DNA of 64,000 bases from Microglena sp. YARC. Its lineage: Eukaryota > Chlorophyta > Chlorophyceae > Chlamydomonadales > Chlamydomonadaceae. Below the pieces are notes generated by a model. That model saw only the letters and a list, made by a program, of their open reading frames with translations. It did no database searches and was not told the DNA's origin. Positions 23,701 through 63,346 of this stretch are shown here, one piece after another; position 1 is the first letter of the stretch, and each line of letters begins with the position of its first letter. A program made the position numbers and the translations under genes. The DNA lies in NCBI GenBank assembly GCA_022414725.1, contig CM039464.1, positions 25,013,279 through 25,077,278 of the forward strand. The letters run 5' to 3'.

Positions 23701-26700
23701 AAAACACTTTCCATCACAACAAACACATCCTATCATAACAGACACCTACTATCATTGAGACCTAGCATGACAAAACACTTTCCAACACAACAAACACATC
23801 CAATCATAACAGACACCTACTATCATTGAGACCTAGCATGACAAAACACTTTCCATCACAACAAACACATCCCATCATAACAGACACCTACTATCATTGA
23901 GACCTAGCATGACAAAACACTTTCCATCACAACAAACACATCCAATCATAACAGACACCTACTATCATTGAGACCTAGCATGACAAAACACTTTCCATCA
24001 CAACAAATCACATCCAAATCCCATCATAACAGACACACTATCATTGAGACTAGCATGACAAAACACTTTCCATCACAACAAACACATCCGATCATAACAG
24101 ACAACTGCCATCATAGACACCTCCACCTGAGAGCTGTGCATCACATCCTTGGACGACTTGTAAAAGTGCAGGGTACCACAGACACACAGCATGACCGGCA
24201 CCTCCTATCACAACAAACACATCCAGTCATGGCAGACACCACCCACAATAGACATGCCCAATCACCACAGACACTACAGACACCTACCATCATAGACACC
24301 TCCTGGGGGTTGTGCATCACATCCTTGGACGACTTGTAAAAGTGCAGGGTACTACAGACACACAGCATGATCAGCACCTCCTATCACTAAGAGCACATCT
24401 AGTCATGGCAGTCGCCACCAACGATAGAAACCGCAGACACTACAGACACATAGCATGATCAGCACCTCCTATCATTCTAAAGAAACACATCTAGTCATGG
24501 CAGTCGCCACCAACGATAGAAACCACAGACTCTACATACCAACCAATAATCGCACACACTACAGACACATAGCATGATCAGCACCTCCTATCACTAAGAA
24601 CACATCTAGTCATGGCAGTCGCCACCAACGATAGAAACCACAGACTCTACATACCAACCAATAATCGCACACACTACAGACACATAGCATGATCAGCACC
24701 TCCTATCACTAAGAACACATCTAGTCACGGCAGTCGCCACCAACGATAGAAACCACAGACTCTATCATACCACCAATGTAATCGCAGACACTACAGACAC
24801 ATAGCATGATCAGCACTCCTATTCACTAAAAACACATCTAGTCCATGGCAACGTCGCCACCAACAATAGACCGCAGACTCTACATACCAACCAATAATCG
24901 CAGACACTACAGACACCTGCCACTATAGAGACTACGCATGACGAAACACTTCCCATCACAGCAAACACACCACAGACACTACAGACACTACAGACGCCAA
25001 CCATCATAGACACCTCCTTCTGGGGGTTGCACATCACATCCAGTCAAGGCAGACACCACACTACCATAAGGCACTCCTCTTGAGGGTTGTACATCACATC
25101 CTTGGACGATTGTAAAAGTGCAGAGATGTACGCTCAAACACAACGTACTCCAGCTCCCACTCATCTTTCATGGTTTCAGTTGAGTAGTGGTACAGATACT
25201 CCCCACTGGTTACTTTGGATTTGGCTCTCAGCTGCATGGCGGCAGGACAGGGGGAATCAGACAGGTTGCTCAGATAAATAAGTGCATCAGCAGGTTGCTG
25301 ACAGGGACAAACGTATCGAAATGGTTTCTTTGGATTTAGCTTTCAGCTGCATGGTGACAGGGACGGGTGCATTGGTAGATTGCTTACAGGGACAAACGTA
25401 TTGAATCGGTTTTTTTGGATCTGGCTTTCAGCAGCATTGTGACAGGGATGGGTGCATCGGCAGATTGCTGACAGGGACAAATGTATCGACGTGGTTTTTT
25501 TGGATCTGGCTTTCAGCTGCATGGTGACAGGGATGGGTGCATCGGCAGATTGCTTACAGGGACAAACGTATGGACCAGTTGGAGATTGGTTGATCAAATA
25601 ATCAGTGCCTTGGAGGTAGGTAATGGTACAGGTATCCCAGCGGTTTTCTTCGCATTTGGCTTCCAGTTGCATGGTGGCAGGGACAGGTGCATCGGCAGGT
25701 TGCTTAGAGAAACAAGTGCATCGGCAGGTTGGTTACAGGGACAAACGTACGGACCAGTTGGAGATTGGTTAATCAGTGACTTGGCGTTAGGTAGTGGTAC
25801 TCCTCAGCGGTTTCTTTGCATTTGGCCTTCAGCTGCATGGTGGCAGGGACAGGTGCACCGGCAGGTTGTTTAGAGAAATGAGTGCATCGGCAGGTTGGTT
25901 ACAGCGACAAACAAACGCTTCGGCCACTTCGAGATTGGTTGATCAGCGAGTTAGAGGTAGGAAGTGGTAGAGGTAATACCCTGTGGTTTCTTTGCATTTG
26001 GCTCTCAGCTGCATGGTGGTAGGGACATGTGCATCGGCAGGTTGGTGGCAGGGACAAGCGCAGCGGCCACTTGGAGATTGGTTCATCAGCAGGTGTGCGG
26101 TAGGTAGTGGTACAGGTACCGGTACTCACTCCCCAGTGGTTTATTTGGATTTGACTTTCAGCTGCATGCATATGGGTTTTGTGGTTTGGGATTTAGGGCT
26201 TTATTAGCTGACTGGTGGGCAAGTGGCTAGGTGGGTGAGTGGTTGGTTGGGCCACCTAAGTTAACCATCCGACTGGCCTTACGCCCCTGCTCACTACAGC
26301 TCCCACTCATCTGTCGTTTCCAGAGTTTGGTAACGGTTCAGGTACTCCCCAGTAGGTTTTCTGTGTTTGATTTTCAGCTGCATGGTGGTAAGGACAGGTA
26401 CGTAGGCAGGTTGGGGTGGGATGGGTGTGGGTGTTGTGTGGTGTGGTGTGGTGGCGGGTTTGGGTGTGGGTGGTGACGATAAGCCCGGGTCGGGCTCGTT
26501 TTGCACAGGCCTGCTTGGGTACTGGCCTGGCCTAGTCATGGGTGGAAAAGGCTTCAGCATTGAATTCTCAGGCACAGTGGCGCGGTCTTTCAAGAGCGAT
26601 GTGCATTCCTCTGAGCTTCAAAGGGCAACGGCATTCCCCTTGAAAGATCGCGGATCCCAAGTTCCCCACAACTGAATCCATCGGATAGTTGAGGCATAAA

Positions 26701-29990: not shown

Positions 29991-30199
29991 TAGCGTTGAC
30001 CGAGGCCTTCAGCCCTAGCCAATTGACAGACGCATTCTTCCCACGCCACCTGCGCATGAGCCTAGACCAGACACCACCTAGTTTCGGTTACTTAATCAGA
30101 GTGACGCACGGGGGGACTTGGAATTGGAAGACGGTGAGAAGCCCTAAGCTGGTGAAAAAAACGTGTAATAGTCCATCCTATCCTTGGCCCTGCACTTCA

Positions 30200-30660
30200 A
30201 CCACCGACGGAATGGTGTGAGTGTTGATGTTGTTGCTGAAGACAGCGAGCAGCTTTAACAGGCTGGAGCTATGTAACCTGCTTCTAGTTGATATCCCCGT
30301 TCGACGAATGGCTCAGTGGCAGAGCTCCTAGAACGACTAAGGTGCCGAGTTCGAATCCCTACGGGTGCGCTTTAGTGTTCGCGGTCGCTGTCTACCGCCA
30401 TGGTAGCTTTGTCCAAGTAAAGTAGCAGCCCGTTCCCTACCACCGTAAGACGAGGCTCCCTTAATACCACGCCCCACCAGGCGTTATCATTACTTTTGCT
30501 TCTAGTTCAAGTTCAAGCACCTCATTCTACTTTCCCACTTGGCCGTCCACTCCAACCCCAACGGTTTGGTGTGAATATTGATGTTATTGCTGAAGACAGT
30601 GGGCAGCTTCAACAGGCTGGAGCTATGTAACCTGCTTATAGTTCAAGTTCAAGTGCAAGC
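30200..30660 (+). repeat. Direct repeat of about 90 bases, one copy interrupted by a SINE
   Basis: The block GGTGTGA-G/A-T-ATTGATGTT, TGCTGAAGACAG, CAGGCTGGAGCTATGTAACC occurs at 30215-30289 and again at 30565-30640. The first copy is split by the SINE at 30290, the second is not. Confidence 0.85.
30290..30497 (+). mobile_element. tRNA-derived SINE with target-site duplication
   Basis: A box TGGCTCAGTGGCAG, B box GAGTTCGAATCCC, then a body CGCCATGGTAGCTTTGTCCA and tail CCACGCCCCACCAGGCGTTA shared with the SINE at 1761. It is flanked by GCTTCTAGTT at 30280-30289 and 30498-30507. The neighbouring repeat copy at about 30630 shows the empty site. Confidence 0.85.
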
Positions 30661-30822
30661 ACCTGACTTGGCACCTCATTCTAATTTCCCACTTGGCCGT
30701 TCACATCCAACCCCTCTGGTACGACGGGCTCACTGCCCTAGTCAAGCCTACAACGCACACGTCACACGGCCAACCCAATGCCTACCGAACCACGCTACCT
30801 GCATCATACACACCACCCCAAA

Positions 30823-31040: not shown

Positions 31041-31070
31041 AACAAAAAGCCAGCTGATTTGGCACTCATT

Positions 31071-31442
31071 CTAATTTTCCACTTGGCCGTCCAATCCAAC
31101 CCTCTCCTCATCCACCGAGAAGAGCTCCCCAGCACCCATCTTTGCTGACCTGGCATACGACCATGCCTCCGCCTCATCCCCATCCGCCACTGAGTTGCGC
31201 CAGCGGCGGTACCGTACCCCCAGCTTGTCGTACGGCATCGGGTTTGCCCAGGTGTCACCCCCGCGCTCCAGCCGATCCTGCTGACCTGTTATTAGGGCCA
31301 TATCCTCCCCCAACACCTGTGCAGCAACACTCTGCCAGACCTTGTCTATGGAGGGTATGTACCGCATCCATCCTATGAAATCCATTGACATGCGGTACAA
31401 CAGCCGGGTGTGGCCTGTCTTGGAAGGCATGCATACATGCAC
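31071..31442 (-). CDS. Pheophorbide a oxygenase (PAO)-like Rieske oxygenase, C-terminal exon
   Basis: Acceptor CCCTAG at the 5' side (exon from 31442), stop at 31071; 123 codons without interruption. It reads [60 protein letters not shown] and [13 protein letters not shown]. This is the conserved C-terminus of the PAO/ACD1 group (Q-V-L-G-E-D-x-x-L-V-T-G-Q-Q-x-[14 protein letters not shown]), which opens the porphyrin ring of pheophorbide a during chlorophyll breakdown in the chloroplast. The Rieske [2Fe-2S] and mononuclear iron motifs must lie in upstream exons (above 32 kb), which I could not resolve. Copies of the exon end (GGACGGCCAAGTGG) recur downstream near 30540 and 30700. Confidence 0.82.
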
Positions 31443-32469: not shown

Positions 32470-33030
32470 ATCAAGAATACAATGGTCATAGATAGTACTT
32501 CGTACTCGAAATTTGATAATTTTGCCGAGTTTTGACATTATTGGCTGGGAATCAATATTTTTTATTTAGTTAGTGCACAAAACTTAAAAATCCTCATGGG
32601 TCATGGATCGTAGTTTTGTACTCAGATTATTCTGAGAATTTACTGATTTTCTGAATTTTGGCCTTGAATCAATTTTATTCTTTATATTAAGTATAATTAT
32701 TATATATATATATATATATTTAATTATTATTTTAGTTTTAGGCCTATATCCTTTAAAAATCCTGTCATTGATCGTAGTTTGTACTCCAATTTTATCATTT
32801 ACCTGATTATTCTGATATTTTGGCCTGGAACAATTCTTATTCTTATTCTATTATATATATTTAATATTTATTATTTTAGTTTGGCACAAATCTTTCAAAA
32901 TCCCTGGTATTGATCGTAGTTTGACCTCAACATTTGATTATTTACCTGATGTTTCTTGTTATTTTGCTTGGAATCAATTCCTTGTTCTTATTATATATAG
33001 TATATTCTTAATTTAGTTTGCCCAAATCTT
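32470..33030. repeat. AT-rich tandem repeat
   Basis: Four degraded copies of about 120-150 bases with ATTGATCGTAGTTTGTACTC, TTTACCTGATTATTCTGATA and GGAATCAATTCTTATTC. The composition is much more AT-rich than the flanks. Confidence 0.75.
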
Positions 33031-33034
33031 AAAA

Positions 33035-33840
33035 ACACAGTCACCTGGTGGAGATGGTTGGAGCACTTTTTCTGATCATTTAGTCAATTAGTCAGCTTAG
33101 TCAGTCAGTTGTCTGGTGGAGTATGGTTTGGGAGCACTTTTTTCTGATCGTTGTCAATTAGTCAGTAGTCAAGTCGTTAGTCCCCTGGTGGGAGATGGTG
33201 GAGCACTTTTCTGATCAGTTTAGCCAATTAGTCAGTTAGTCGTCAGTTTTAGTCATGGTGTGAGATGGTTGCACTTTTCTGATCAGTTTAGTGAATTAGT
33301 CAGTTAGTTCGTAGTTAGTCACTGGTGGAGATGGTTGGAGCACTTTTCTGATCAGTTAGTCATTAGTCAGTAGTCGTCGTTAGTCACCTGGTGGAGATGG
33401 TTGGAGCACTTTTCTGATAGTTAGTCAATTAGTCGTTAGTCGTCAGTTTAGTCACCTGGTGAGATGGTTGGAGGCACTTTTTCTGATCAGTTAGTCAATT
33501 AGTCAGTTAGTCAGTCAGTTAGTCACCTGGTGGAGATGGTTTAGAGCACATTTTCTGATCAGTAGTCAGTTAGTCGTTAGTCAGTCAGTTAGTCACCTGG
33601 TGGAGATGGTTGGGCACTTTTCTGATCAGTTATGTCAGTTAGTCAGTAAGTCCAAGTCGTTAGTCATCTGGTGAGAATGGTTGGGAGCACTTTTCTGATC
33701 AAGTTAGTCAGTTGTCATGTAGTCAGTAGTAGTATCTGGTGGAGATGGTTGGAGCACTTTCTGATCAGTTGTCAGTTAGTCGTAAGTCAGTCACTTAGTC
33801 AGTTAGGTCACTGTGGAGATGGTTGGAGCACTTTTCATGC
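33035..33840 (-). repeat. Tandem repeat of about 70 bases with donor-like motif
   Basis: About 12 copies of CACCTGGTGGAGATGGTTGG-AGCACTTTTCTGATCAGTTA-GTCAATTAGTCAG. On the minus strand each has ATCTCCACCAG|GTGACT, a donor-like junction, so this may be the donor side of an exon at about 33840-33960. Confidence 0.8.
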
Positions 33841-33965
33841 CTTGTCTTCATAATCTTGCCAGGCTGTTCAAGTCCGATGACGACTCAGTCAGCAGGGAGG
33901 GTGGAAGCCATGTCTCAATGGGGTAGGGGTCGCCAGTTGCCAGCTAGCCGCCTGCATCAAACAAA
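33838..33965 (-). other. Possible exon, unassigned (PAO-like gene?)
   Basis: Minus-strand reading GDPYPIETWLPPSLLTESSS then DLNSLARL, or in another frame VVIGLEQPGKIMKTRHEKC; an acceptor TGATGCAG lies before it. A partial copy lies at 34015-34075. I recognise no family; frame breaks are likely. Confidence 0.3.
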
Positions 33966-34085
33966 TCACACCATACTTGGCTAGAGTTGGCTTAGAGAGT
34001 TAGTGACTCAGTCTGCAGGGAGGTGGAAGGCCATGACTATGGGGTAGGGGTCAGTTTGAGCTAGCGCCTGCATCAACAAGAAGCA

Positions 34086-34195
34086 TGGTCACTGTTTCAT
34101 TTTTGGGCTAACGGGTAGCAGCTTCTAGGCAGCTGCATTCCCCGTGCTTGGGCCAATCCGAAGCTAGCTAGTGCGTCCTGAAATTTGACAGCATG
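34086..34195. mobile_element. Half of a Mutator-like MITE
   Basis: CATTTTTGGGCTAACGGGTAGC and AGCTTCTAGGCAGCTGCATT match the left terminal repeat of the elements at 29112, 50994 and 59434. The right end is absent. Confidence 0.55.
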
Positions 34196-34249
34196 GGCTG
34201 TTCAATGCAGAAAGATTTTGGCGACAATCCATTCATTGCTGTTGGATGC

Positions 34250-35090
34250 TGCTGGAAGGCATGCATAGCTGACTGGAAGGCAATGCATGCATTGGGACTG
34301 GAAGGTATGCATGCATAGCTGACTGGAAGCGCAATGCATACATTTAGATGATGGAAGGCAATGCATGACATTGGCTGACTGGAAGTATTGCATGCATAGC
34401 TGACTGAAGGCAATGATGCATAGCATGATGAAGGCATGCATAATAGCTGACTGGAAGGCAGCATGCATTGGCTGACTGGAAAGTATGCTGCATAGCTGAC
34501 TGGAAGGCAATGCATGCATAGATGACTAAAAGGCAATGCATACATAGCTGACTGGAAGGTAATGCATGCATAGCTGACTGGAAGGCAATGCATGCATTGG
34601 CTTTGACTGAAGGTATGCCAGTGCCTAGCTGACTGGAAGGAATGCATTTGCAATTAGATGGACGTGGAGGCATGCATACATAGCTGACATGGAGGTAAAT
34701 GCATGCATAGCTGACTGGAAGGCAATGCATGCATTGGCTGACTGGAAGGTAATGCATGCATAGCTGACTGGAAGGCAATGCATGCATAGATGACTGAAAG
34801 GCATGCATACTAGCTGATGGAAGGTAATGCATACATAGCTGACTGGAAGGTAATGCATGCATAGTGCTGGAAGGCAATGCATGCATTGGCTGCTGGAAGG
34901 TAATGCATGCATAGCTGACTGGAAGGCAATGATGCTAGATGCTGAAAGGATGCATACATAGCTGATGGAAGGTAATGCATGCTAGCTGACTGGAAGGCAA
35001 TGCATGATAGGCTTGACTGGAAGGCAATGGCATACATACGGCTGCTGGAAGGAATGCATGCATGGCTGTTGGAGGCTGGCTGGCTGGCAA
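34250..35090. repeat. 28-base minisatellite
   Basis: More than 25 copies of GACTGGAAGGCAATGCATGC-ATAGCT with frequent single-base gaps. Confidence 0.93.
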
Positions 35091-46506: not shown

Positions 46507-46622
46507 ATGGCCTCTGCTGCGATCGCCACCAATGCTAGGTTCCTAGCTACCCCCAAAGTTTACAGCGGGCAGCGGGCAACTCCCAAGCCTGTGGTGGTCA
46601 CTCGCCGGGCTTCTGCTTGCAG
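46507..46622 (+). CDS. ACR11-like exon 1: transit peptide
   Basis: Starts at the ATG at 46507 and encodes 38 residues plus two bases. It is rich in Ala, Ser, Thr, Arg and Lys with no acidic residue, as in a chloroplast transit peptide. The donor is CAG|GTAGG. The two leftover bases (AG) join the G that opens the exon at 49016 to give Arg, so the frame continues cleanly. This in-phase join is why exon 1 is connected to 49016 rather than to 47185. Confidence 0.75.
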
Positions 46623-49600
46623 GTAGGAGCTTGCTAGCCCCTACTCCTGCCTGCGAAACAATACTAAATGCACGTGGGTTTCTTGTAAGCTAGTATGCCT
46701 TGACGATCTGGCAGTCGGATATTTCTCCGTTGCTATTTGGGAAGTGTCTGGAGCCAGCCCTTTTGAATCCGTCCCAAAGCATCACCTGATGCCTCAGGTC
46801 CTGATGGACGCATATGTCTGCGCTCACATATCTCAGTCACAGGCCTGAGATATGTATATGTACCTCAGTCGCGCTGGAAAATGAACAACACCCCCAACTC
46901 ATCCCGCGAGCCTATGCTTTATCCCTCTCGATAAGAACTAGCAGCTGCTACTGCTGCTACTGCTGCTGCTGCTGCTGCTGCTTTGATACATCTGCTACTC
47001 CTGCTATGTGTCGCATTACCAGCTTCACCGATTACAGCACACGAATGTGTTTCAGAGGAATCTCCCCCTGGCAGCGCACAGCCCCTTACTCCATCCCCTG
47101 AACCCTCCCATTCCATCCCCAACACCATCGCCATCCCCAACAGATACCAACGCACCTCCCTCCCCCCCCCCCCTTCCCAAACAGGCCGTCAGCTTCGCTG
47201 CCCCATGCTCGGTCAAGAAGCAACCGGCCAACAGGGTGGTAGTTGCCAGGTAGCTTGTGTAGTTAGCTCTTGCAAATTGTCGTCCTGCTCTGTTGTCGAG
47301 TGTAGCGAAGTGGTATGCGATACTTATCTCCTCCTGATCGATGCAGACTGGGTCAAATCGAAATATTGTATACCGGCGTGCTAGTTGAGCCGGTCAGTTT
47401 CAGACATGAGCACCAGATCTTGCATGAACTTCTCAAATGATGATCACCTAGCATCCAAATGAGGGAGCCACCTAGCAAGGATTTGAGCTCTGATTGCTTG
47501 TCCTACAGCCAACATAAGTTAGAATAGGACCTCCAGCTTTCATCATTTTGTGTGGATCCCTTATGTCCAGATAGCACAGTCCCTCATAATCCCCTGCTAG
47601 CGCACTGTTGACATGGTTTACAGCCTACACAGTTGGTGTCATTGCTGCATGGCCAACAGCCTACATGATGTATGGCAGGACTTCCAGCTTACATCAGATT
47701 GTATGGATACCTAATACCCAGACAGCATAGTCCCTCATTATCCCCTGCATGCGCAATGTTAACATGGCCAACAGCCTACAGGGATTGGAGCTCTGGTCGC
47801 ATGGTCTGCAGCTTACAGAATGTTTAACAGGACCTCCAGCTTGCATCAGATTGTACAGATCCCTAATGTCCAGACAGCAAAGTCCCTCAGTATCCCCTGC
47901 ATGCACTTTGATCTCAACTGACCCGAGATACCCTCTGAATGGACCCTCCTGCCTGCTTGCATGCATGGCCTGCTCGCCTACATGCTGCAATCCCCTCCGT
48001 GCTCTGAATAGCCTGCCTGTCTATCAGTCTGTCTGCCTATGTGCTCTGAAGGGGCTGCCTGTCTTTCTGTCTGTCTGCCTATCTGCCGCAACCCCCTCTT
48101 TGCTCTGAAGGGGCAGCCTACCTGCTCTGAAGGGCTGCCTGTCTCTCTGTCTGTCTGCCTACCTGCCCTCAATGCTTTGAATGGGCTGCCTGCTTGCATG
48201 CATCGTCTGCTCGCCTACCTGCCGCAATCACCTCCATGCTCTGAATATGCTGCCTGTCTATCTGCCTGTCTACTTACCTGCTCTGAATGGTCTGCCTGTC
48301 TGCCTTTTTTCTGTCTGCCTGCCTACCTGCCGCAATCGCCTCCATGCCCTGAATGGTCTGTCTGTCTTCCCTGAATGGGCTGCCTGTCTTTCCGTCTGTC
48401 TGTCTGTCTGCCTGCTCGCCTACCTGCCGCAATCACCTCCATGCTCAGAATGGGCTACCTGTCTGTCTGCCTGTCTACTTACCTGTCTGCCTACCTGCCG
48501 CGATCCCACCCATGCCCTGAATGGGCTGCCTGTCTGTTTGTCCGCCTGTCTGCCGGCAGCCCCTCATGTAACCTACCCTTTCCCAGACTCCTGTAGCCTC
48601 GTAGGATGACAGATGGTGTAATCAAACCAAATATGGGAGCTAATTGGTGGTTGGCCCCAGTGCAAGCACATAGGCTTGCCCCTTCAACCTCACGCCTCGT
48701 AATAAGGTGTACTATTTATTTGTATTTGTATAGAAGCTCAAAAGCCCTGTCCATCATGGCATCAGACTTCACAGCTGCTTGTCTGACTTCTTTGATTACA
48801 CCGTCTATCAGCCTACAGGTTGCTCACCGTCTGTGGGTAGAGGAAACATGGATTTCTCCTATCATCCTCAAATTATCCTCAAATCATCCACAAATCATCT
48901 GTAAAACATCCTTAAACATTGTCAATCGAAACCAAACCCTCAATATTAGTTCAAGCTCAAACCAAACCCTCAACCTTAGTCCAAGTTCAAACCAAACCCT
49001 TAATCTTGTCCACAGGGCCTCTCTCCAACCCAAGGAAACTCCTACAGCCATTGTCAGGATTGACAACATGACCGACCCCGTAAGTTCAGTAGATTAAACA
49101 GCAAGTAATGTTGTTTTTCAGTGCAACGCGACGCAAATTGAGTGAAGGGGTGCGATCCCAGTGCGACGCGGTGCCCCCGAAACGTCGCTAAGTGCATCAA
49201 TATATCGTACAATATCGTATGGTAGATCAATACATCGTATAAGATCGCACGACGTATCAATATATCGAACAATATATCAGTATATCGTACAATTTGGTAC
49301 GGTTTTTCAATATATTGTACAAAATCGTACGGTACATCAATATATCGTACAATATTGGACCAGTACGATATCCCTAGATATCCGTTGAAAATGGAAATTG
49401 GTACAAGCTGCCACAGGACATGAGATGTAAGCGACCCTCCCGTTTGCATGTACCTGGATATCCGCTAGGGAACGACAACTAACATAAGTGTCTGAAAAAC
49501 TAATGTTTACTTATATTATTATAGTGCTGTGTAGTGTCACAATACTATTAGATTTTCAAATCAATTCAAAATTCTGGTGAGACGGCCCGTCCGACTAATA

Positions 49601-49696
49601 TTATATAATGTTACATAATGTTATTGATTCACTAGGGGGGGGCAAGAATAAAGTTGGCAGACCGCATGTTCGGAAGTTGTTATATTGACCCCTGGA

Positions 49697-49728
<32 letters not shown>

Positions 49729-50457
49729 CCCCCTTTGAGACCTCATATCTGAACACCCAGACAGTATAACATAGTGAAAGGGGGGTCCATGAGCATCATT
49801 TCGTCAAGGCCTTTCCAACCATACAACCAAAAGATACAAATATCAAGTTTGGACAAAGTTATTTAGATTTCAGTATTTTTACAACTTTCTTGAGCGCTCC
49901 GCAGTCGTCTTCACCCTTGGAGGAGATCACTAAGGTATGTAAAGGACTGAAGGCGCTATTTATCTGTCTACCGTATCTAACTTTATTATCATCATTATCA
50001 TGGTTTAATCGACTCAACTTGTATTCTGGAGCCTGATGGTCTGCTCTGGTGGTGTGTGTGTGTGTCTGGGGTGTGTGTGTGCGTGTGTGGGTGTGGGTGG
50101 GTGGGGTGGGTGGGTGGGGGGGGGGGGGGGGGGGGGTCCACTGCTTTAGGAACCTCGTAGGTGACCAGAGTTCAGAACGCGCATCCAAACGCGTTGCGCG
50201 CGCGCCTTTTTCGCCGCCAACTGCGTCTCGTGCGAAGCTCGGCGCGAAGGTCTGGGTGACGTCCAGCCTGGCGTCCAGCCTGGATGTACCTTCCAGGAGA
50301 TCCACCTATTACACCCTGCGTGTAACTTACTAACGAATGCAGATTCGCACTCCTCTCGTCGAGACGTACTCATTGGTGTACCTCGAGCTCGAAAATTCGC
50401 ACTGGCAAGAAAGTTACACGAGGTACAAATAAAATTGGGAAAACGGTCGGACCCCCC

Positions 50458-50516
<59 letters not shown>

Positions 50517-51449
50517 GTATCTCGGCCGCCCGTGGGTGTATCGACATGATTTGCTCGCGGTTCTCTATCCATATCGAACATGCGGTACGAAATCTTTTTC
50601 CTTGCCCCCCCCTCGCCGACACCTATATATATATCATATAAATAAATCAAAAAAAGGACGCCTTATTACAAGGCGTGGGGTATGTATCATGTATATAATT
50701 CCATCCAATGGTGCTCACCACGCCCCTTGCTCTACCCCCCACCCCCACCCCACACACACACCACCACCACCACTACCACCACCCAACAACCACCCACACA
50801 CTTGCTCGCACATGCCCTCCCCCCCCACACACACACTTGCTCGCCCCTTGAATGCAGTTTGCCACCATCATCTCTGTTGAGTTCGGAGATCGCATGGGAG
50901 AGATGCTTGACACGGTGAGTTTTCAATGTTTTTTTCTTCTGTTTTCGACGACACGTTGCCATTATATTGCCACTGCGTGGCGCTGCATGAGCCACTGCTT
51001 TTATTTTCGGCTATCAGCACCAGCTTCTAGGCAGATCCCCGAGGCTGCCACCGGGCCAAACCCAAAGATTTCAGGAGCTCTGGAGAGCTGTTGACAAGAG
51101 CTCCCAACTGCACTAGGTTGCTAAAGGTTTGGATGAAGGGAGAGCCCGGGGAGCTGCCTAGAACCTGCTGATTGGAACTGAAAAGAAAAGCTATGGCATG
51201 AGCCTGGCTGAACTAGTCAGAACTGGCCCCCCGCCCCCCCTGTGCTCTGGTCCACCTCTGAGGCTGTAACAACCAGGCTTGGCGCTCTGCGGATTTCAAG
51301 GGGCAGCGCTGGGGTCGCATTGAGTCGCTCAATTGCTTGCGATGCGTACACACTTATACAGCCCCACACACCTCCTCTCCTACCCCCCAAACCACACACA
51401 CACACACACAAACCCACCTCCACAAATACACACTTACCCCCCCCCCCCC

Positions 51450-51486
<37 letters not shown>

Positions 51487-51549
51487 ACACACACACTCAC
51501 ACACACACACACTCACACACATACACACCTTCACTCCTACCCCCAAAAC

Positions 51550-51587
<38 letters not shown>

Positions 51588-54500
51588 AACCCACCTCCAC
51601 ACAAACCTCCACCTTATTTCTGTTGCGTTTGGAGATCGCATGGGAGAGATGCTCGGCACTGTGAGTATTCCCTTAACAAAGCACTCATGTTAGTACCCCT
51701 CATTCCCACCCCAGCAATATCCCATCATCTTTGTCACCTCTAACATCACCACGGAAATCACCAGCCCCTCTCCCCCCCACTCCCCCCACTCCACACACAT
51801 ACACACGCACGAGAGATCGCATGTGAAACATGCTCAGCACTGTGAGTATTCCCTTAACAATGCACTCATGTTTGTACCCCTTCATTGCCACCCCAGCAAG
51901 ATCCCACCATCTTCATCACCACTTACATCACCACGAAAATCACTACAACAAGTCCTATGCAGCGTCGCTTGGAAAATTGGCGGAGAGTGTTGGCAACGGA
52001 ACGAAAGGAGGCAAAGATGGAGCTGACCGAAGCGGGTTAGTTTCGCGACCGTAGGCTGACGTGTCAAGCTTCAAGTTTTTCGGTCGGACAAACAGACAAA
52101 TGGGTCAACATGGGGGCTCCCGCCCCCTTGAAGAGGGGGCTCCGCAAAAATCACCATAAAATCACCAATCCCACCCCCCCCACCCACACACGCATTCACA
52201 CGCACGAGAGATCGCATGGGAGAGATGCTGGACACTTACAGTATTACCCTTGCAAAGCACCAATGTTTGTACCCCTTCATCAACACCCCAGCAAGATCAC
52301 ACCATTTTCATAACCATGTTTGCACCCCTTCACCGCCACACCCACACCCACACCCTCACCCACACACCACCCCGACACTCACACTCACCCCTACCCCCCA
52401 CACCACACCTCTACGCCCCACCCACACACCCAACCCCTTACACCCACACCCCAAACAGATCACTGCGCTGAGGAATATCGGCCTCAACATGAGGCAAGCC
52501 AAGCTTGCAGCATCTGACACAGAGCACTCATACCTACACCACCACACCTGCCCTCACACCCACACCCCCACACTCACGCACCCCACCACTACACCTCCCA
52601 CCCCACCCTCACTGCCACTCCCACTCCCACCCCCACACCCCTATCAGATCAATCTGCTGAAGAACATCGGCCTCTACATGAGGCGAGCCAAGCTTGCAGT
52701 ATCTGACACACAGCACTCATACCTACACCTCCACACCTGCCCCCACACCCACACCTCCACACCTGCCCCCACACTCACACACCCCACCACTACACCTCCA
52801 CACCCACACCTCCACACCTGCCCCCACACTCACACACCCCACCACTACACCTCCCACCCCCACCCCCGTTACAGATCACTGCGCTGAAGAACATCGGCCT
52901 CAACATCAGGCGGGCCAAGCTTGCCGCATCCCAGTTAGATCCCAACTGCAAAAGCATGCTCAATAAGTTCTTCATCACAGATGCCGAGACGAGCGAGAAG
53001 ATCGTCAAGTCTCAGAGGCTTGAGGAGGTCCGCCTGACTGTGCTAAAGAGTCTAGCCGACACCTACCCAGTAGGTGCCCCTTGCTGTGTGACCTGGGTGA
53101 AAAAGGGAGTGGGTAAGGGAGTGAAAAGGAAGTGGAAAAGGGGGGGGCGGGAAGGGAGTCAAAAAGGGGGTGAAAAAGGGGGGTGGGGGGGGGAGTGAAA
53201 AAGGGAGTTAAAAAGGGGGTGGAAAAGGGATTGGAAAATGGGGTGGAAAAAGGAGTGAAACTGCTAAAGAAGGTACTTAAAGGCACTTATCACCCCCCAA
53301 CCACAAGAGATGGCTGCACAGTGGAATAAAACCAACACCCTGCTCAACCTACCGCCCCACTATCCCCTCTGCACACTCAAAGCAACAAGTAACACCTGAC
53401 TGTGCTCAAGTCGTGTCTGGCCGGCACATACCCGGTAGGTGCCCCTGGGTGAAAAGGGGTGGTGTGTGTGTGTGTGTGTGTTGGGGGGGGCGGGCATACC
53501 CCTACACACACGCGCACAAAGCAACACGTACCGCCTGACTGTGCTCAAGTTGTGTCTGGCCGGCACATACCTGGTAGGTGCCCCTTGTTGTGTGCTCTGG
53601 GTTAAAAAGGGGTTGTAGGCTGGGGAAATGTCATATATAAGTTGTGTCTGGCCGGCACATACCCTGTAGGTACTGCACTGGGGGCTAAATCAAATTGCCA
53701 TGAAGCGGCAACAATAATTTAGGTTAGAGACCCTGTTGATTTTGTGTTGTAATGAGATGAGAAGACAGTTCCATGAATGTAATAGCTTAAAAACGTAAAG
53801 ACGGCGATAATTTAGCCAATGAGCGGCCTAATCATGGAAGAACATCTAACGGATTGTCCGTCACTCCGCCCCTGTGATGGGCCCATTAACCAAAGGTCCC
53901 TGGATCAAGACCAGGCTCCGAATGCAAAAAATAATCGGTGGTTGGCCCCAATGAAAGCAACAGGCTGGCCCCCTCAACCTCACGCCTCGTAACAAGGTGT
54001 ACTATTTATTTGCTTAGTAATCTTAATTATTTATGTATTATTGTCTGTCACTCCACCCCTGCAGGATTACCAGGGCAGTGGATCTCTAGGTGCCCCCAGC
54101 ACTGAGGAGATGAAGACCCTAGGCATGAGGACCCTTGTCCCCACCACTGTAGATGTGGCCGAGGCACCCAACGGCTCCTGCAGTCTGCTCAAGATTGTGA
54201 CTGTTGACCGGCCTGGCCTGCTTATTGATATCGTCAGGGTGTTGAAGGACATTAACCTGAATGTGGTGTCTGCAGAGGTAGGGCAGCATGCTTGTGTATG
54301 CATATGTGTGCTTGTGTGTCTGCAGAGGTAGGGCAGCATGCTTGTGTGTGCGTGTGTGTGTGTATGCATATGTGTGCTTGTGTGTGTATGCGTATGTGTG
54401 CTTGTGTGTGTATGCGTATGTGTGCTTGTTTGTCTGTAGGCGTAGGTCCCCAACGGCTCCTGCAGTCTGCTCAAGGTTGTGACTGTTGACCGGCCTGGCT

Positions 54501-57500
54501 TGCTTATTGATATCGTCAGGGTGTTGAAGGACATTAACCTGAATGTGGTGTCTGCAGAGGTAGGGCAGCGTGCTTGTGTGTGTCTGGTTTTGATGCATGC
54601 GTGTGTGTTTTGGATGCGCTTTTGTGTGTCTGGTTTTGATGCATGCGCGCATGTTGTGTATGTGCTTGTGTGTGTCTGGTTTTGATGCATGCATGTGTGT
54701 TTTGGATGTGCTTGTGTGTGTCTGGTTTTGATGCATGCGCGTGTGTTGTGTACGTGCTTGTGTGTGTCTGTGGTTTTCATGCACGTCCACCTGAATTTGG
54801 TGGCTTCAGACAAAAGAAACAGTTCCCATGAGCACCAAACACCATGAGTGTTCCATATGTCGATGGTGACAGACCCCCCCCCAATTTCCACAAGAGGCTA
54901 ATATGAGGTCAATAGAAACAGTTCAAAACAAATAAACAGTCAAAAACAAAAAGAAAGTTAAAAAAAAGCTTAAATCAACTCTTAATTCAAAACAAATAAA
55001 TAGTGAGTGTTCCAAAACAATAACGTTCTGAAGGATTTCACGATGTTTTTGAGACGAATATAAGCCGATACAAATAATTTCACGTTACACATTTCACGTT
55101 TGTTTCCAGAAGAATATAAGCTCACGTTACACATTTCACGTTAGAAATTTTAATGAACCCCCTATTTCTGTACCTGAATGATCCTCATAAGTACCAGAAT
55201 CAGACGAAAATACTTAATACGATACGAAAAATGTGATACGAATCGCTCAATTGAATGATCATCCTGGATGAGACGATGATTTAATTATTAAGGGCGTCCC
55301 AAATGAAATTATCAGAGTTCTGAATTGAATTGATTTAATTGATTTTGATTTAATGTTGTGTTATTGTAATTCAATTTAATATATCTCCATAGGTGCCTAA
55401 GTCAGACCCTTAGTGATACGGATGGATTGAGCCTATGCCCTCAAGTCCCAAAACAAAGATTTTTTGCTAATAAGTTGCCCAACCACATCAGTTCAACACA
55501 CAAATACTCGGATTTGGGTTTTCTCAAATGGTGGGGTCCAGGTCAAGTGAAACATGCTAATTTGTTACTATGGGGTTCCCTAAGTCGATACGGGTTTTAC
55601 GGAGGAAGTGATACGGAGCCTATCGCGACCGAAACAAGCCATTTTAAAAGAGCACTGGTTACAAATGTTGTGTAACGTCTTTCCCTACCAGTAGTTATTA
55701 CGGAAGGTCTTGGAAGGCAGTACACAGGCAGTACAGTTGAGTACGGACCCCCAAAACACTGATTATTTACGTTTCGTGGGTGTCCTAAGTCTAGGTCAGA
55801 GTTGCACAGCCTCAATTGAAACATTTTAGGCCTCGGTTTTGCTCTATCTCAAGATATAGCGTGCTAAACAACTTTTTCTTTTTTTTCGAATATCAAAATT
55901 CAAAATTCAAATAATTTTGGAAAATAAATTCAAAAAACAACCTTTTTTTATTTGTCTTCAAACATCCACATCTGAACTCAGTTTTTGATTTAGGGTAGAT
56001 CATTGAAAACACACCCTAATCCTGAGCCATGGTGTGGTGTGGTAGGCCACAGGGAGGTGAAATCTTGAGATGTACAGCTATTTCAGTAGATTCCGAGGCC
56101 AAGGCTGAAGCGCAGCCTCCGACCTTGTAATAGGGGTTCGATAAGCCTTTTGTCCCGAGGTTCCTTTCTTTGGAATAGCTCGCGCGGCCTCGTATCTGAC
56201 GCGATCTGGATTTGTATCACTAATTATCGCACATCTGATGTACTGCCACCGGCCTGCCGAACAAGGCGGCTCGCGACCAGATGCGAACGCGCACGAAAAG
56301 TAGCTGTGCGCATAGCTGACACCATCGCGAACGATATGAGCCTGACAGAATTCGATTCTGAGCAGTTTGGGCCGTGTACGGCTCTGTATCACATTCTTGT
56401 ATCGACTTAGGGCGTTTTCGGACTTAGGCACCTACGGAGATAATTGAACATAATTGAATTGCATTTACATGAATTGAATGCATTTACGTGAATTGAATGC
56501 ATTTAATGGTTCTGATGTATAGACACTAATGCACAGCATACACTCAACTCCTCATCTCGTTGGGTGTAACATAGGCAGCTATCATCAGCCTGTGCTTCTC
56601 CATCATGAATGCGCTGAAGACATCCCTCAGCCCATCATTATAGGGCTTCTGCAAACCTGTATCACATGTCTGCAACACGCTGGTGCAGTTGGGTGCCTGC
56701 TCTGATGAGGCTTGGTTGTCAGATCAGAGGGATCGACCAGCAAGAACCCCAGGGCCTGAGCAAAATTCACAGCCCTCTTACTGAACAAGTCATATGCAGA
56801 GCAAGCGACGCGGAAAATTGGCGGAAAGTGACGGAAACGGAACGACAGGTGGCAACGATGGAAATGACCGGAGCCAGTTAGTTATGAGACAGTTGGCTGA
56901 CGTGTCAGACTTCGTCTCGGTAAAAACTTGCGCAAGATGCTAGCAGGGGTCGGAGCAGGGGTCTAATCGATTGCGACTGCCTCCTGGACTTCGGCTGCAA
57001 CAAGGATTGGCTGATTTCGAGCAGGGGTTGGCTGATTTCGATCAGCTGTGGTTTGCCCGGAGGGAAGTCGCGTAACAAAACCCCACAAGGTCCTTTGTTT
57101 ATGGTGGTGTGGAACTAACAAAGGCGGACTTGTCAACCGACCCTCTGGGGTCGATCAATGGGCGAGAGCATGAGATCTGGAGTGTCTCGATTTCCGCAAG
57201 CCGTTTTTTGAACCCGCAGACACTTGGGCTCGTATGTAAGCGCTACATCCAGCCTAAGACCTATTATCGCCGCTGCACTCGATTCACGATCTTTTCGGCC
57301 AGGAATATAAGTTACGTTCTAATTTCACGAAGTCAAACGCGAAATTAGAACGTTATTTTTTTGGAACACTACGGTAGTGAAAACAAGCAAACAAACAGTC
57401 ATAAACAAAAACGTATAATCAAACAAGCCGCAAAAACACACACAATTAAAAAAACGAACAGGTATCTGAGCAGCAAGCACCAAGAGTTATCAACATGTAA

Positions 57501-60351
57501 ACGGCGACAGTCCCCCCATTTTTATACTCCCCCATTTCAGTTAATTGCTTGCCTTCACTAATTTTATATTTTTATTTAGGGCCATAATGTGGGAGGCTTA
57601 AACAAGGTCAAAACAAAGCGTCACAAACAAAAGCGTTCAAAACGCGTTAAAAGCGTTCAAACCGCGTTAAAAGCGTTCAAAACAAACAAGCAGTTCCCTG
57701 AGCAGCAAGCACCAGGAATTATCAGCATGTAGACGGCGACAGCCCCCGATTTCCGTACTCCTCCATTTCCACACTCTCCATTTCCGTACTCCACCATGTT
57801 CATACTCACCATTTCCGTACTCCTCCATTTCCATACTCTCCATTTCCGTACTCTCCATTTCCGTACTCCACCATGTTCATACTCACCATTTCTGTACTCC
57901 TCCATTTTCATACTCTCCACTTCCATACTCCTCCATTGTCATACTCACCATTTCTGTACTCTTACACTTCCATACTCTCCATTTCCGTACTCAACCATGT
58001 TCATACTCACCATTTCTGTACTCCTCCATTGTCATACTCTCCATTTCCGTACTCCACCCTGTTCATACTCACCATTTCTGTACCCCTCCATTTTCACACT
58101 CTCCATTTCCATACTCCTCCATTCCCATACTCTCTATTTATCACTCCTTGCCTATAGGTTGTCACCATCGGTGGCCAGGCTATTGATATTTTCTTTGCCA
58201 CCATTTCCGCACTCCTAGATTTCCATACTCTCCATTTTATCACTCCTTGCCTATCACTCCTCCTTGCCTATCACTCCTTGCCTATAGGTTGACACCATCG
58301 GTGGCCAGGCTATTGATATTTTCTTCGTCACCTATCACGGAGAGCCTCTCTCTGGCTCCATGGTCGCCCTCACCACCAACTCTCTCCAGTGAGTACAGGA
58401 CACATTGTAATACGTTAGTAATTGTATGGTCATTGTATGGTGATAATATGGTAATTGTAAGGTAATATATGCTAATGGTACGGTAATAGTCAGGTAATAT
58501 ATGCTTATCGTACGGTATTTGTATGGTAATATATGCTAATGGTACGGTAACAGTATGGTAATATATGCTAATGGTACGGTAATAGTCAGGTAATATATGC
58601 TTATCGTACGGTATTTGTATGGTAATATATGCTTATGGTACGGTAACAGTATGGTAATATATGCTAATGGTACGGTAATAGTCAGGTAATATATGCTTAT
58701 CGTACGGTATTTGTATGGTAATATATGCGAATGGTACGGTAACAGTATGGTAATATATGCTAATGGTACGGTAACAGTATGGTAATATATGCTAATGGTA
58801 CGGTAATAGTCAGGTAATATATGCTTATCGTACGGTATTTGTATGGTAATATATGCTATGGTACGGTAACAGTATGGTAATATATGCTAATGGTACGGTA
58901 ACAGTATGGTAATATATGCTAATGGTACGGTAACAGTATGGTAATATATGCTAATGGTACGTGATTTGTATGGTAATTGGAAGTTAACTGAATGGTGATT
59001 GGAAGGTAATGTATGGTAATTTGAAGGTAATTTATGCTAAATGTAAGGACATATATGCTAATGGTAATCGTATTAATTGTATGCTTTTAGTATGGTAAGT
59101 GTAAGATAATTGGAAGGTAATTGTAGGGGTCATTAGGTTAGGGGTTAAATCATATGATGTTGACCTAAGACGAGTATGATATCATACAAAAATCAGATGA
59201 TTTAATATCATATGATATGATGCCCCAGGCCAAAGTTACCTAGTCAGACTGCCGGCATCATATGATATCATATGATGACATGAATTCATATGATATCATA
59301 TTGCCGATCCCTAGTCGTTGTTAAAGAAGAGAAAAAGTTTCAAAGGCGCGAAGTATGGCCTCAGCCTCAGTAAAAGGCGAAAGGAATAGACATCTGAATA
59401 CCAAAAGTAGCTCTCCATATCTGCACCTCTATATTACAGTGTTTTTCTTTTGGGCTACATGTAGCAGCTTCTGGGCAGCTCCCCTGCCTGGCTACTCGAT
59501 CAACTCAAAGGCCTAGCACTCTGCTACAGTGACTGCGGGTTTGCCTGCATATTCCAGCACGCACAATCTGAAGGATCAATGGCTGAGGAAGAGGGATAGT
59601 GGCTGGATGAGGGTCCTTGTGAAGGATCACGATTGTTTTTCTTTGGGGCTACATGTAGCAGCTTCTGGGCAGCTCCCCTACCTGGCTGCTCGATCAACTC
59701 GAAGGCCTAGCACTCTGCTACAGTGACTGCGGGTTTGCCTGCATATTCCGGCACGCACAATCTGAAGGATCAATGGCTGAGGAAGAGGGATAGTGGCTGA
59801 ATAAGGGTCCTTTTGAAGGATCACGATTGTTTTTCTTTTGGGCTACATGTAGCAGCTTCTGGGCAGCTCCCCTACCTGCCTGCTCGATCAACTCAAAGGC
59901 CTAGCACTCTGCTACAGTGACTGCGGCTTTGCCTGCATATTCCAGCACGCACAATCTGAAGGATCAATGGCTGAGGAAGAGGGATAGTGGCTGAATGAGG
60001 GTCCTTGTGAAGGATCACAATTGTTTTTCTTTTGGGCTACATGTAGCAGCTTCTGGGCAGCTCCCCTGCCCGGCTACTCGGTCAAAGGTAGCGCACGCTG
60101 GTGCATCTGACGGCTGACATGGTCAGCTTACCAGTGCTCCTGAAATTCAGGGCTTTAGCCCTGTGTCTGGCTCAGGGAGCTGCCTAGAAGCTGCTACGAG
60201 AAGCCCCAAAGAAAAGCACCTCTATACCGACTCTTCGTGTACTCCACAAACCCAAACCCACACTTACCCACACCCCACAAACCCCTCTTTCCATGCATCT
60301 CACAGGTACTACCTGTCCCTCTATGAGGTGTCTCGTGAGGAGTCCTACTAG
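46507..60351 (+). CDS. Chloroplast ACT-domain protein, ACR11/ACR12-like (split gene, 7 exons)
   Basis: The coding exons are 46507-46622, 49016-49079, 50858-50914, 52875-53069, 54065-54277, 58288-58388 and 60306-60351 (stop TAG). All junctions are GT-AG and in phase, giving about 263 residues. The product starts with a transit-peptide-like segment (MASAAIATNARF...) and then has two ACT repeats. The first runs through VEFGDRMGEMLDT and ITALKNIGLNIRRAKL; the second contains VTVDRPGLLIDIVRVLKDI and ends with the C-terminal strand (IGGQAIDIFFVTYHGE). Order, length and ending (Y-L-x-x-x-E-x-S-R-E-E-S) match plant ACR11 (about 290 residues), which is known to bind plastid glutamine synthetase and Fd-GOGAT; a role in nitrogen-assimilation control is inferred from that family. 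No catalytic domain is present. The introns total about 13 kb and are filled with copies of exon edges, minisatellites and transposable elements. Exon-level homology is strong. The first exon has a possible alternative at 47185. Confidence 0.85.
47185..47249 (+). CDS. Candidate alternative exon with transit-peptide-like sequence
   Basis: A 65-base segment sits between a C-rich tract ending CAG and the donor CCAG|GTAGC. Read from its first base it gives AVSFAAPCSVKKQPANRVVV plus Ala and a leftover AG, which resembles the end of a plastid transit peptide. It joins the exon at 49016 in phase. Joined to the exon at 46507 it is out of phase and hits a stop at once. It could be an alternative first coding exon (an open frame reaches back to an ATG at 47008), a poison exon, or chance. 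Confidence 0.45.
47500..48570. repeat. Tandem repeats in ACR11-like intron 1
   Basis: From about 47500 to 47910 there are roughly three copies of a unit of about 160 bases (ACCTCCAGCTT...CAGACAGCA...CCCCTGCATG). From about 47980 to 48570 there is a unit of about 60 bases rich in CTGCCTGTCTGTCTG with TACCTGCCGCAAT and GCTCTGAATGGGCTG. The open frames across this block are artefacts of the repeat. Confidence 0.8.
48645..48725 (+). mobile_element. AACCTCACGCCTTGTAATAA family element
   Basis: GTGGTTGGCCCCAGTGCAAG ... CAACCTCACGCCTCGTAATA-AGGTGTACTATTTATTT in ACR11-like intron 1. Confidence 0.65.
49016..49079 (+). CDS. ACR11-like exon 2: start of the mature protein
   Basis: The acceptor is CTTGTCCACAG and the donor is CCC|GTAAGT. 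It encodes ASLQPKETPTAIVRIDNMTD plus Pro, aligning with the segment just before the first ACT domain of plant ACR11 (TPKVIIDLDSDPD). The sequence just upstream (about 48935-49010) is a roughly 36-base repeat built on AACCAAACCCT. Confidence 0.82.
49195..49375. repeat. ATCAATATATCGTACAATAT repeat
   Basis: Six or so copies of about 30 bases (ATCAATATATCGTACAATAT-CGTACGGTAC) just downstream of the exon 49016-49079. Confidence 0.85.
50459..50514 (+). repeat. Poly-C run of 56 bases
   Basis: An uninterrupted C tract; another C-rich tract lies at about 49700-49733. Length in the assembly is unreliable. Confidence 0.9.
50858..50914 (+). CDS. ACR11-like exon 3: ACT-1 first strand
   Basis: The acceptor is AATGCAG and the donor ACG|GTGAGT. 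It encodes FATIISVEFGDRMGEMLDT, matching ATVVEITFGDRLGALLDT of plant ACR11. It is phase 0 at both ends. Three degenerate copies of its 3' part, two of them followed by the GTGAGT donor and all without an acceptor, follow in the intron near 51620, 51812 and 52206. Confidence 0.85.
50994..51195. mobile_element. Mutator-like MITE with 9-base target-site duplication
   Basis: Terminal inverted repeats of about 48 bases (left ACTGCTTTTATTTTCGGCTA...AGCTTCTAGGCAGATCCCCG; right its imperfect complement). It is flanked by a perfect GCATGAGCC at 50985-50993 and 51196-51204. A 9-base duplication is typical of Mutator-like elements. 202 bases, no coding capacity. Confidence 0.82.
51350..51600 (+). repeat. 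CA microsatellite
   Basis: ACACACAC runs interleaved with CCTCCACAAA on the coding strand of ACR11-like intron 3. Confidence 0.92.
51618..52245 (+). repeat. Donor-side echoes of ACR11-like exon 3
   Basis: Three degraded copies of the end of exon 3 (GGAGATCGCATGGGAGAGAT) with its following intron (CCCTTAACAA...CATGTTTGTACCCC...CCCAGCAA) lie near 51620, 51812 and 52206. The first two keep GTGAGT; none has an acceptor. They alternate with CA-rich microsatellite and with an unrelated mobile element at 51947-52147. Confidence 0.8.
51947..52147 (+). mobile_element. Dispersed 200-base element, copy 3
   Basis: ACAAGTCCTATGCAGCGTCG...GGCTGACGTGTCAAGCTTCA...GAAGAGGGGGCTCCGC. Flanked by AAAATCAC on both sides (just before 51947 and just after 52147), a plausible 8-base target-site duplication. 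Confidence 0.75.
52459..52874 (+). repeat. Acceptor-side echoes of ACR11-like exon 4
   Basis: Two copies of the first 60 or so bases of exon 4 start at 52459 and 52648, each after an AG acceptor (CAAACAG and CTATCAG). Both then run into CACCACACC microsatellite, with no donor. The intact exon follows at 52875. The copies translate almost identically (ITALRNIGLNMRQAKLAA and INLLKNIGLYMRRAKLAV). Confidence 0.88.
52875..53069 (+). CDS. ACR11-like exon 4: ACT-1 body
   Basis: The acceptor is CCGTTACAG and the donor CCA|GTAGGT; 65 codons, phase 0 at both ends. It encodes ITALKNIGLNIRRAKLAA, then NKFFITDAETSEKIV and LEEVRLTVLKSLADTYP, which aligns across the helix-strand-strand-helix part of the first ACT domain. 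Two partial copies of its 5' half lie upstream (52459 and 52648), with acceptors but no donor. Three partial copies of its 3' end lie downstream (about 53390, 53521 and 53641), with donors but no acceptor. Confidence 0.88.
53070..53680 (+). repeat. Donor-side echoes of ACR11-like exon 4
   Basis: The end of exon 4 plus donor (GACTGTGCTCAAG...GGCACATACC|GTAGGT-like) recurs near 53395-53432, 53531-53575 and 53641-53670. The intron between them is G-rich (GTGAAAAAGGGGG). Confidence 0.82.
53935..54012 (+). mobile_element. AACCTCACGCCTTGTAATAA family element
   Basis: GGTGGTTGGCCCCAATGAAA ... CTCAACCTCACGCCTCGTAA-CAAGGTGTACTATTTATTT; 60 bases upstream of ACR11-like exon 5. Confidence 0.65.
54065..54277 (+). 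CDS. ACR11-like exon 5: linker and start of ACT-2
   Basis: The acceptor is CCCCTGCAG and the donor GAG|GTAGGG; 71 codons, phase 0. It opens DYQGSGSLGAPSTEEMKTLG, a linker, and ends in the ACT core VTVDRPGLLIDIVRVLKDI. The D-R-P-G-L-L signature is the classical ligand-binding loop of ACT domains. A second, nearly identical copy of its last 37 codons follows at 54449. Confidence 0.9.
54446..54559 (+). CDS. Duplicated in-frame exon copy (ACR11-like exon 5b)
   Basis: This 114-base segment repeats the ACT-2 core (starting PNGSCSLLKVVTVDRPG) with very few changes. Unlike the other exon-edge copies here it has a candidate acceptor (GCGTAG) as well as the donor (GAG|GTAGGG). It is phase 0 at both ends and would add 38 codons without shifting frame. 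It may be skipped, used instead of the end of exon 5, or included; RNA data are needed. Confidence 0.5.
55382..56442. mobile_element. Inner 1.06-kb element with 22-base terminal inverted repeats
   Basis: TATCTCCATAGGTGCCTAAG-TC at 55382-55403 and the complement of GACTTAGGCACCTACGGAGA-TA at 56421-56442 agree at 21 of 22 bases. The interior has no recognised coding region. Confidence 0.65.
56784..56935 (+). mobile_element. Dispersed 200-base element, copy 4
   Basis: ACAAGTCATATGCAGAGCAA-GCGACGCGG ... GTTGGCTGACGTGTCAGACT; lacks the GGGGGCTCCGC end. Confidence 0.65.
57720..58287 (+). repeat. Pyrimidine-rich 34-base repeat and acceptor-side echo of exon 6
   Basis: CTCCATTTCCGTACTC-type units (about 17 and 34 bases) fill the acceptor side of the intron. 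They include one copy of the exon 6 start at about 58158-58206 after its own TATAG acceptor. Confidence 0.8.
58288..58388 (+). CDS. ACR11-like exon 6: C-terminal part of ACT-2
   Basis: The acceptor is GCCTATAG and the donor CTCCA|GTGAGT. It encodes VDTIGGQAIDIFFVTYHGE, then PLSGSMVALTTNSL, and leaves two bases that join the G of the last exon as Gln. It aligns with FDTEGLLAKVKFHVSYRNK and the following helix of plant ACR11. A partial copy of its 5' edge with its own acceptor lies at about 58158-58206. Confidence 0.87.
58389..59130 (+). repeat. GGTAATATATGC minisatellite at the donor of ACR11-like exon 6
   Basis: Units of about 32 and 64 bases (TATGCTAATGGTACGGTAAC...GTATGGTAATA) are repeated more than 15 times directly after the exon 6 donor. 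Confidence 0.88.
59147..59295 (-). repeat. Palindrome-rich dispersed repeat (copy 2, inverted)
   Basis: Contains several ATCATATGATATCATATGAT-type palindromes; the reverse complement matches 13186-13312, including CTCGTCTTAGGTCAACATCA. Confidence 0.7.
59434..60215. mobile_element. Mutator-like MITE with internally amplified unit
   Basis: The left terminal repeat (TTTTTCTTTTGGGCTACATG-TAGCAGCTTCTGGGCAGCTC) occurs four times at intervals of about 194 bases (59441, 59636, 59830, 60025), each followed by CACTCTGCTACAGTGACTGC-type sequence in the first three. The single right end (GGGAGCTGCCTAGAAGCTGC...) closes at 60215. The flank GCACCTCTATA at 59423-59433 is repeated at 60216-60226. In the last ACR11-like intron. 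Confidence 0.78.
60306..60351 (+). CDS. ACR11-like last exon
   Basis: The acceptor is ATCTCACAG. Fourteen codons (YYLSLYEVSREESY) are followed by TAG. This matches the plant ACR11 tail (RYFLRRPSTEESSF), which confirms the final junction and stop. Confidence 0.85.

Positions 60352-63296: not shown

Positions 63297-63346
<50 letters not shown>

Follow-up and report, generated by a model that had tools for sequence, protein, structure and literature searches.

Why do the introns of a single gene hold repeated pieces of the exons beside them, always in the same order, and what process could have left them there? The question is raised by an ACT-domain (ACR11-like) gene at 46507..60351 on the plus strand of the window, by which we mean the whole stretch of 64,000 nucleotides that was analysed (C3:25013279-25077278 in a genome of 568,105,699 bases). 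The gene model, based on open frame, GT-AG introns and Pfam, has eight exons (46507-46622, 47193-47249, 49016-49079, 50858-50914, 52875-53069, 54065-54277, 58288-58388 and 60306-60351), which give a coding sequence of 849 nt, or 282 codons, with an uninterrupted frame and GT-AG at every intron. The protein matches the Pfam families ACT_ACR9_3rd (E 8.3e-12) and ACT (E 3e-7), and no relative of it was found in the viral_contigs and plasmids databases. Rfam and tRNA scans returned no matches.

The initial annotation of this DNA had counted copies of exon edges, hereafter echoes, in the introns of this gene, and all 11 were recovered with blastn and Smith-Waterman alignment, its "one or two" at the exon at 54065 being two. 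They belong to 5 of the 14 splice junctions, and each lies beside its parent on the same strand. Exon 4 (50858) has three copies of its donor edge, at 51609..51670 (54/63 matching, gtgagt intact, acceptor absent), 51813..51851 (31/39, gtgagt intact) and 52208..52235 (27/28, GT lost). Exon 5 (52875) has two copies of its acceptor edge upstream, at 52403..52514 (94/120 including the intron side, CAG/ATCACT intact, the stroke marking the junction) and 52581..52703 (99/127, CAG/ATCAAT, acceptor AG intact), and three of its donor edge downstream, at 53395..53451 (46/57), 53531..53611 (67/81) and 53646..53671 (22/26), all with gtaggt intact. The donor edge of exon 6 (54065) is copied twice with gtaggg intact, once in a 50-bp tandem unit (54316..54360, 42/45) and once at an offset of 282 bp (54439..54582, 109/111 in the exon part), and the acceptor edge of exon 7 (58288) is copied once, at 58071..58202 (period 130, tag/GTTG intact, CACC at the breakpoints). 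All of these copies are on the plus strand. No echoes of exons 1, 2, 3 and 8 were found in the adjoining introns.

Sixteen exon sides were scored on both strands against a null of 60 dinucleotide shuffles per exon side. The five positive sides gave exon-only scores of 22 to 109, vs shuffle maxima of 12 to 15.5; the other 11 scored at noise level, as did all 16 on the reverse strand. The order that had been claimed holds at all five junctions, with acceptor-side pieces upstream only and donor-side pieces downstream only. The initial annotation had also reasoned that copies at scattered places and in any orientation would speak against its reading; within the window the copies lie beside their parents on the same strand, and no comparable copy of an ACR11-like exon lies elsewhere in it (best score 15). 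Similarly, among the best candidates of a genome search with a single query, exon 5, the only edge copies were the parent and its local echoes, and no introner-like dispersal of this edge among genes appeared; the other matches were to a CA-rich intron part or to one paralogous exon on contig C1.

As had also been noted, a copy usually has one splice site and not both, none of the 11 spanning both ends of its exon. GT or AG is retained in 10 of them, the exception being the third exon-4 echo. When these ten sites were substituted singly for the real site, nine led to a premature stop and the tenth, in the 50-nt exon-6 copy, shifted the frame with loss of the normal stop. Since the echo sites disrupt the frame when substituted, the ACR11-like protein presumably depends on the sites of the complete exon being used.

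The anatomy of the echoes bears on how they arose. Exon 7 is the plainest case, a two-unit head-to-tail array (TRF period 130) in which the copy at 58071-58202 runs, in the alignment, into the parent unit at 58200-58332, with CACC at each of the two breakpoints and again at the joint. This microhomology is clear and the CCACC at exon 4 is suggestive; for the exon-5 acceptor unit, the left breakpoint search gave a best score of 11, which was reached in 14% of shuffles. The initial annotation had proposed repeated tandem duplication across a single exon-intron junction. The tandem duplication itself is borne out by the exon-7 array, and also by the multi-copy chaperonin arrays described below, but the word "repeated" does not hold at the exon-5 donor. 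Here all three echoes (53395-53671) differ from the parent by the same 3-nt insertion and the same 4 base changes, echoes 1 and 2 agree with each other at 38/40 positions, and the copies clearly derive, to judge from these shared changes, from one crossing. The insertion common to all three implies that either the exon or the first echo changed after that crossing. The exon-4 echoes share flanking sequence that is missing at the parent, as do the exon-5 acceptor echoes, and these shared flanks suggest one crossing each at these two junctions as well, although the exon parts of the copies show no clear sign of being more alike among themselves than they are to the exon. Because the copies share changes or flanks that the parent lacks, many of the extra copies were probably added by re-duplication following a single crossing, and about six crossings of a junction probably account for all 11. 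The alignment of the first exon-4 echo takes in 53 of the 57 bases of the exon, yet without the acceptor, and this echo lies 746 bp from its parent, with unrelated DNA intervening; for this echo we infer a tandem origin.

Generality was assessed on exons picked independently of echoes. The chaperonin family Pfam PF00118 has 64 matches in the genome, of which 55 segments in 14 loci were tested, the other nine being C6:13962293, C5:11283081, C93:42159, C2301:14515, C2301:15407, C2:59850440, C452:27709, C6:14265829 and C2:59918183. The test covered 108 of 110 possible sides (the other two were too short) with 20 dinucleotide shuffles as the null. Local copies stand beside 30 of the 55 segments (27 at an edge) and on 41 of the 108 sides (35 with edge copies), and 3 of the 14 loci have none. 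There are at least 122 copies, namely 55 acceptor-edge copies upstream, 55 donor-edge copies downstream and 12 interior ones, with at least 10 on one side. Counted by side, 5'-edge copies occur on 19 upstream and no downstream sides and 3'-edge copies on 16 downstream and no upstream sides (Fisher p 2.5e-10, with sides treated as independent though some loci may be paralogues). Reverse-strand copies were found on none of the 108 sides. Six of the 41 positive sides have interior copies only, and some of the interior class may be owed to match segments whose limits are not the true exon ends. One of the nine matches that were set aside, C6:13962293-13963762, is an unsplit Cpn60 match of full length (open frame of 544 aa, profile 1-488), the other chaperonin matches of the genome being mostly split, and it could be a contaminant, a transfer or a retrocopy.

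The chaperonin copies are splice-junction-spanning tandem repeats, in which head-to-tail units carry exon and intron sequence over the splice site. They extend beyond the exon segment, with identity over the next 20 bp of 0.594 (47 copies) and 0.667 (45 copies), compared with 0.234 at random places. Spacing was mostly regular, by a lenient test, on 19 of the 23 sides with several edge copies (median 163 bp), and TRF over one exon edge near C1:177.6 Mb returned a period of 180 bp, 6.5 copies and 94% matches. Some of these arrays are long and terminate in a live exon edge. The median identity of the copies is 0.865, with quartiles of 0.80-0.92.

Other genes agree. A probable second echo-bearing exon of the window lies at 25065..25231 on the minus strand, with borders drawn by eye at AG and GT; on the same strand, eight acceptor-edge echoes (25322..26413) all lie upstream and three donor-edge echoes (24104..25039) all lie downstream, both junctions being sorted correctly. 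No Pfam family was found above the cut-off for this exon, and PH-like and WW-like hints were not significant. At 25100-25120 the exon and its donor-edge echoes differ in frame by one base, through either a sequencing error or a frameshift. On contig C1, a paralogue of the ACR11-like gene (L009; G000:C1:76651000-76660999) has its own set of exon-edge echoes, unlike those of its relative. The test of this paralogue covered exons 4-7, with the end of exon 7 set one base short. Its exon 6 has one acceptor-edge copy upstream and five donor-edge copies plus at least 7 shorter interior pieces downstream, exon 7 has four donor-edge copies downstream, and exons 4 and 5 have no echoes; the three echo-bearing junctions all sort by side. 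The two genes agree in the borders of exons 4, 5 and 7, in the donor of exon 6 and in the acceptor of exon 8. Exon 6 of the paralogue begins later and is preceded by a separate weak match (E 0.008), and, on a comparison of the sequences, an intron may have been gained or lost in either gene at this point; the paralogue may have an extra intron inside what is exon 6 in the window gene. In a kinesin profile search read by eye in profile coordinates, a match at C2:15919754 (191-296) is followed downstream by pieces covering 251-296 and 243-296, and one at C1:145291615 (264-326, minus strand) has upstream pieces covering 263-309 and 264-318. The phenomenon is general in the sense that it recurs at chaperonin and ACR loci, with kinesin added by eye only.

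We contend, with a good deal of confidence, that these echoes are best explained by local tandem duplication acting genome-wide and without any specificity for junctions. Units of roughly 50-300 bp would be duplicated in tandem throughout the genome, the agent presumably being replication slippage or unequal crossing-over, perhaps aided by short homologies and pre-existing minisatellites. A unit straddling a donor would give the full exon, the intron start, the exon end and the intron start again, and one straddling an acceptor would give the intron end, the exon start, the intron end and then the full exon. Since the parent is by definition the copy that runs on into the remainder of the exon, acceptor-edge copies would come to lie upstream and donor-edge copies downstream, with one splice site each. 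The complete exon would stay between its own two sites and, if the spliceosome keeps to these, the mRNA would be unchanged while the intron lengthens; the arrays would afterwards expand and decay within the intron. Exon definition would be expected to favour the complete exon, and the process would likewise be expected to be neutral.

This general process is sufficient in view of three observations, namely similar copying away from exons, equal coverage of exons and introns, and the statistics of placement. Complex local direct repeats occupy 46% of the bases of the window (223 pairs within 1.5 kb), in which no local inverted pairs were found once self-palindromes had been set aside. In the ACR11-like gene they cover 36% of exon bases and 33% of intron bases. 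Of the complex non-exon segments in the chaperonin regions, 51 of 117 are copied nearby in direct orientation, vs 30 of 55 exon segments, the non-exon background resting on 8 block shuffles, a cruder null, with 90 low-complexity segments dropped and a segment length different from that of the exon test; reverse-strand matches occurred in 6 of the 117. Finally, units placed over exons 2-7 of the ACR11-like gene catch exactly one junction in 63-66% of placements, and the capture of a single junction in five of five cases is unremarkable against random placement (p about 0.1).

The same figures bear on the explanation that comes next, in which a junction-targeted process, such as breaks or fork stalling tied to splicing or to R-loops at the borders, duplicates splice junctions preferentially. 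A junction-specific mode was the earlier reading of this locus, and it would fit the edge copies at 27 of 55 chaperonin segments, the echoes at 5 of 14 ACR11-like junctions and the ten or more copies on a single chaperonin side. It is nevertheless improbable in our judgement, since non-exon segments lying away from exons have copies about as often, the repeats cover exon and intron of the ACR11-like gene to an equal extent, and placement alone accounts for the capture of single junctions. We therefore do not take the anchoring of copies at exon edges as proof of a special mechanism. Copying is also found where no junction is involved. Among the 136 open frames of the window (166 listed) that were searched against Pfam, the only exon to be named convincingly was the last exon of a pheophorbide-a-oxygenase-like gene (31071..31442, minus strand; PaO E 4.8e-12), three further families at E 0.005-0.006 being taken as chance. 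The stop-codon end of this exon has two copies downstream at 30521..30713 on the minus strand (48/54 and 35/38), and a third, at 30183-30202, is weak (16/20). Splice sites are thus not required, and the duplication effect reaches beyond splice junctions.

That selection maintains the echoes as decoy or regulatory splice sites is very unlikely. In its favour, 10 of 11 ACR11-like echoes keep GT or AG, 39 of 44 acceptor echoes in the chaperonin set keep AG, and the ACR11-like donor hexamers have diverged little, showing 3/48 mismatches vs 30/144 in adjacent exon bases (p 0.026, the copies not being independent) or, with one copy per event, 0/24 vs 12/72 (p 0.034). In the larger chaperonin set this conservation was not reproduced, donor hexamers decaying like exon bases (34/228 mismatches vs 93/680, p 0.66) and GT being kept in only 24 of 38 copies, and we do not adopt a functional reading; excluded from this test were 7 donor copies whose parent shows no clear donor, 7 acceptor copies whose parent has no acceptor, and 14 copies that were not aligned as far as the splice site. 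Decay in that set looks neutral, and the premature stops or, in the tenth case, the lost normal stop that the ACR11-like echo sites would cause also argue against a selected role. Nonetheless, the ACR11-like hexamers and the AG retention of the chaperonin copies leave room for selection on some echoes.

It is scarcely credible that the echoes are truncated remnants of whole-exon duplication, as of alternative or mutually exclusive exons, even though the first exon-4 echo contains almost all of its 57-nt exon. No copy in either set carries both splice sites (0/122 chaperonin, 0/11 ACR11-like), which for the chaperonin segments is weak evidence on its own, as many exons exceed the usual spacing; in addition, the arrays repeat the same truncated piece and the edges sort perfectly by side. 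An assembly or read-error artefact, to which the indel-rich region at window 32500-35000, with tandem arrays full of one-base gaps as in poorly polished sequence (by eye), might seem to point, has hardly any probability, as the copies are diverged (quartiles 0.80-0.92), their flanks and spacing differ, the loci lie on several contigs and the parental ACR11-like frame is open.

How far general tandem duplication has shaped this genome is a further matter. We would give an even chance to the proposition that junction-spanning arrays are, throughout the genome, one of the main ways in which introns grow, so that around half of exons would stand amid arrays of their own edges, the spliceosome would routinely pick one complete exon among half-exon decoys with near-identical sites, and some arrays would perhaps be tuned by selection.

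Single cases are already known, and what is new, as far as our literature search shows, is the genome-wide scale; no report of a genome in which junction-spanning copying is general was found in the literature searched, which leaves out most subscription journals. A study of 1995, going by its title, reportedly concerned a tandem array in one transcript whose repeats bear donor sites, and Reed and Maniatis are said to have made duplicated 3' splice-site constructs of beta-globin in 1986. Constructs of this kind were used in PMC5389562 and resemble the present acceptor echoes in that an extra acceptor with a shortened exon piece precedes the full exon, but they are artificial model substrates with a single duplication. 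The initial annotation knew of no described name for this mode of intron growth, but tandem duplications or repeats that cross exon-intron boundaries have been published (PMC4974935, PMC2812944). In the potato RdRp gene, one tandem duplication over an intron-exon boundary created a new intron (PMC4974935). That case is a single recent duplication with a new intron and a cryptic donor, whereas the present genome has decayed arrays of several copies at many exons, and its existing introns appear to be lengthened. Genes in human segmental duplications have variable internal tandem repeats at exon-intron boundaries (PMC2812944) and, similarly to the present arrays, the repeats overlap the borders and alter gene structure. 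Those repeats lie in recently duplicated primate genes, with novel introns or alternative splicing possible, whereas conserved genes are affected here and a complete exon stands beside the array.

Tandem duplication over junctions would offer a simple, self-sorting route by which introns lengthen without a change in the protein, and it can be followed in many genes of one genome over a range of divergences. It also amounts to a natural large-scale experiment on splice-site choice, as one intron may hold several donor or acceptor copies with graded exon lengths, and exon definition and proximity rules could be put to a direct test with long-read RNA from the organism. Caution is advised for gene-prediction tools, by which echoes may be called as exons; the kinesin profile search, read by eye, appears to list partial copies as separate matches.

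The introns of the ACR11-like gene seem also to grow by insertion. A 227-bp stretch (51944-52170) separates exon-4 echoes 2 and 3, and echo 1 resembles the uninterrupted site. This stretch is one copy of a repeat that is interspersed in the window and may be a short mobile element, with partial relatives at window 56812-56913, 27411-27646 and 30896-31048. Very long C or G homopolymer runs occur at window 49697-49733, 50452-50514 and 63299-63346. A second interspersed repeat of about 200 bp is present at window 50991-51197, 60022-60218 and 29116-29297, and in two of these three places it is weakly self-inverted.
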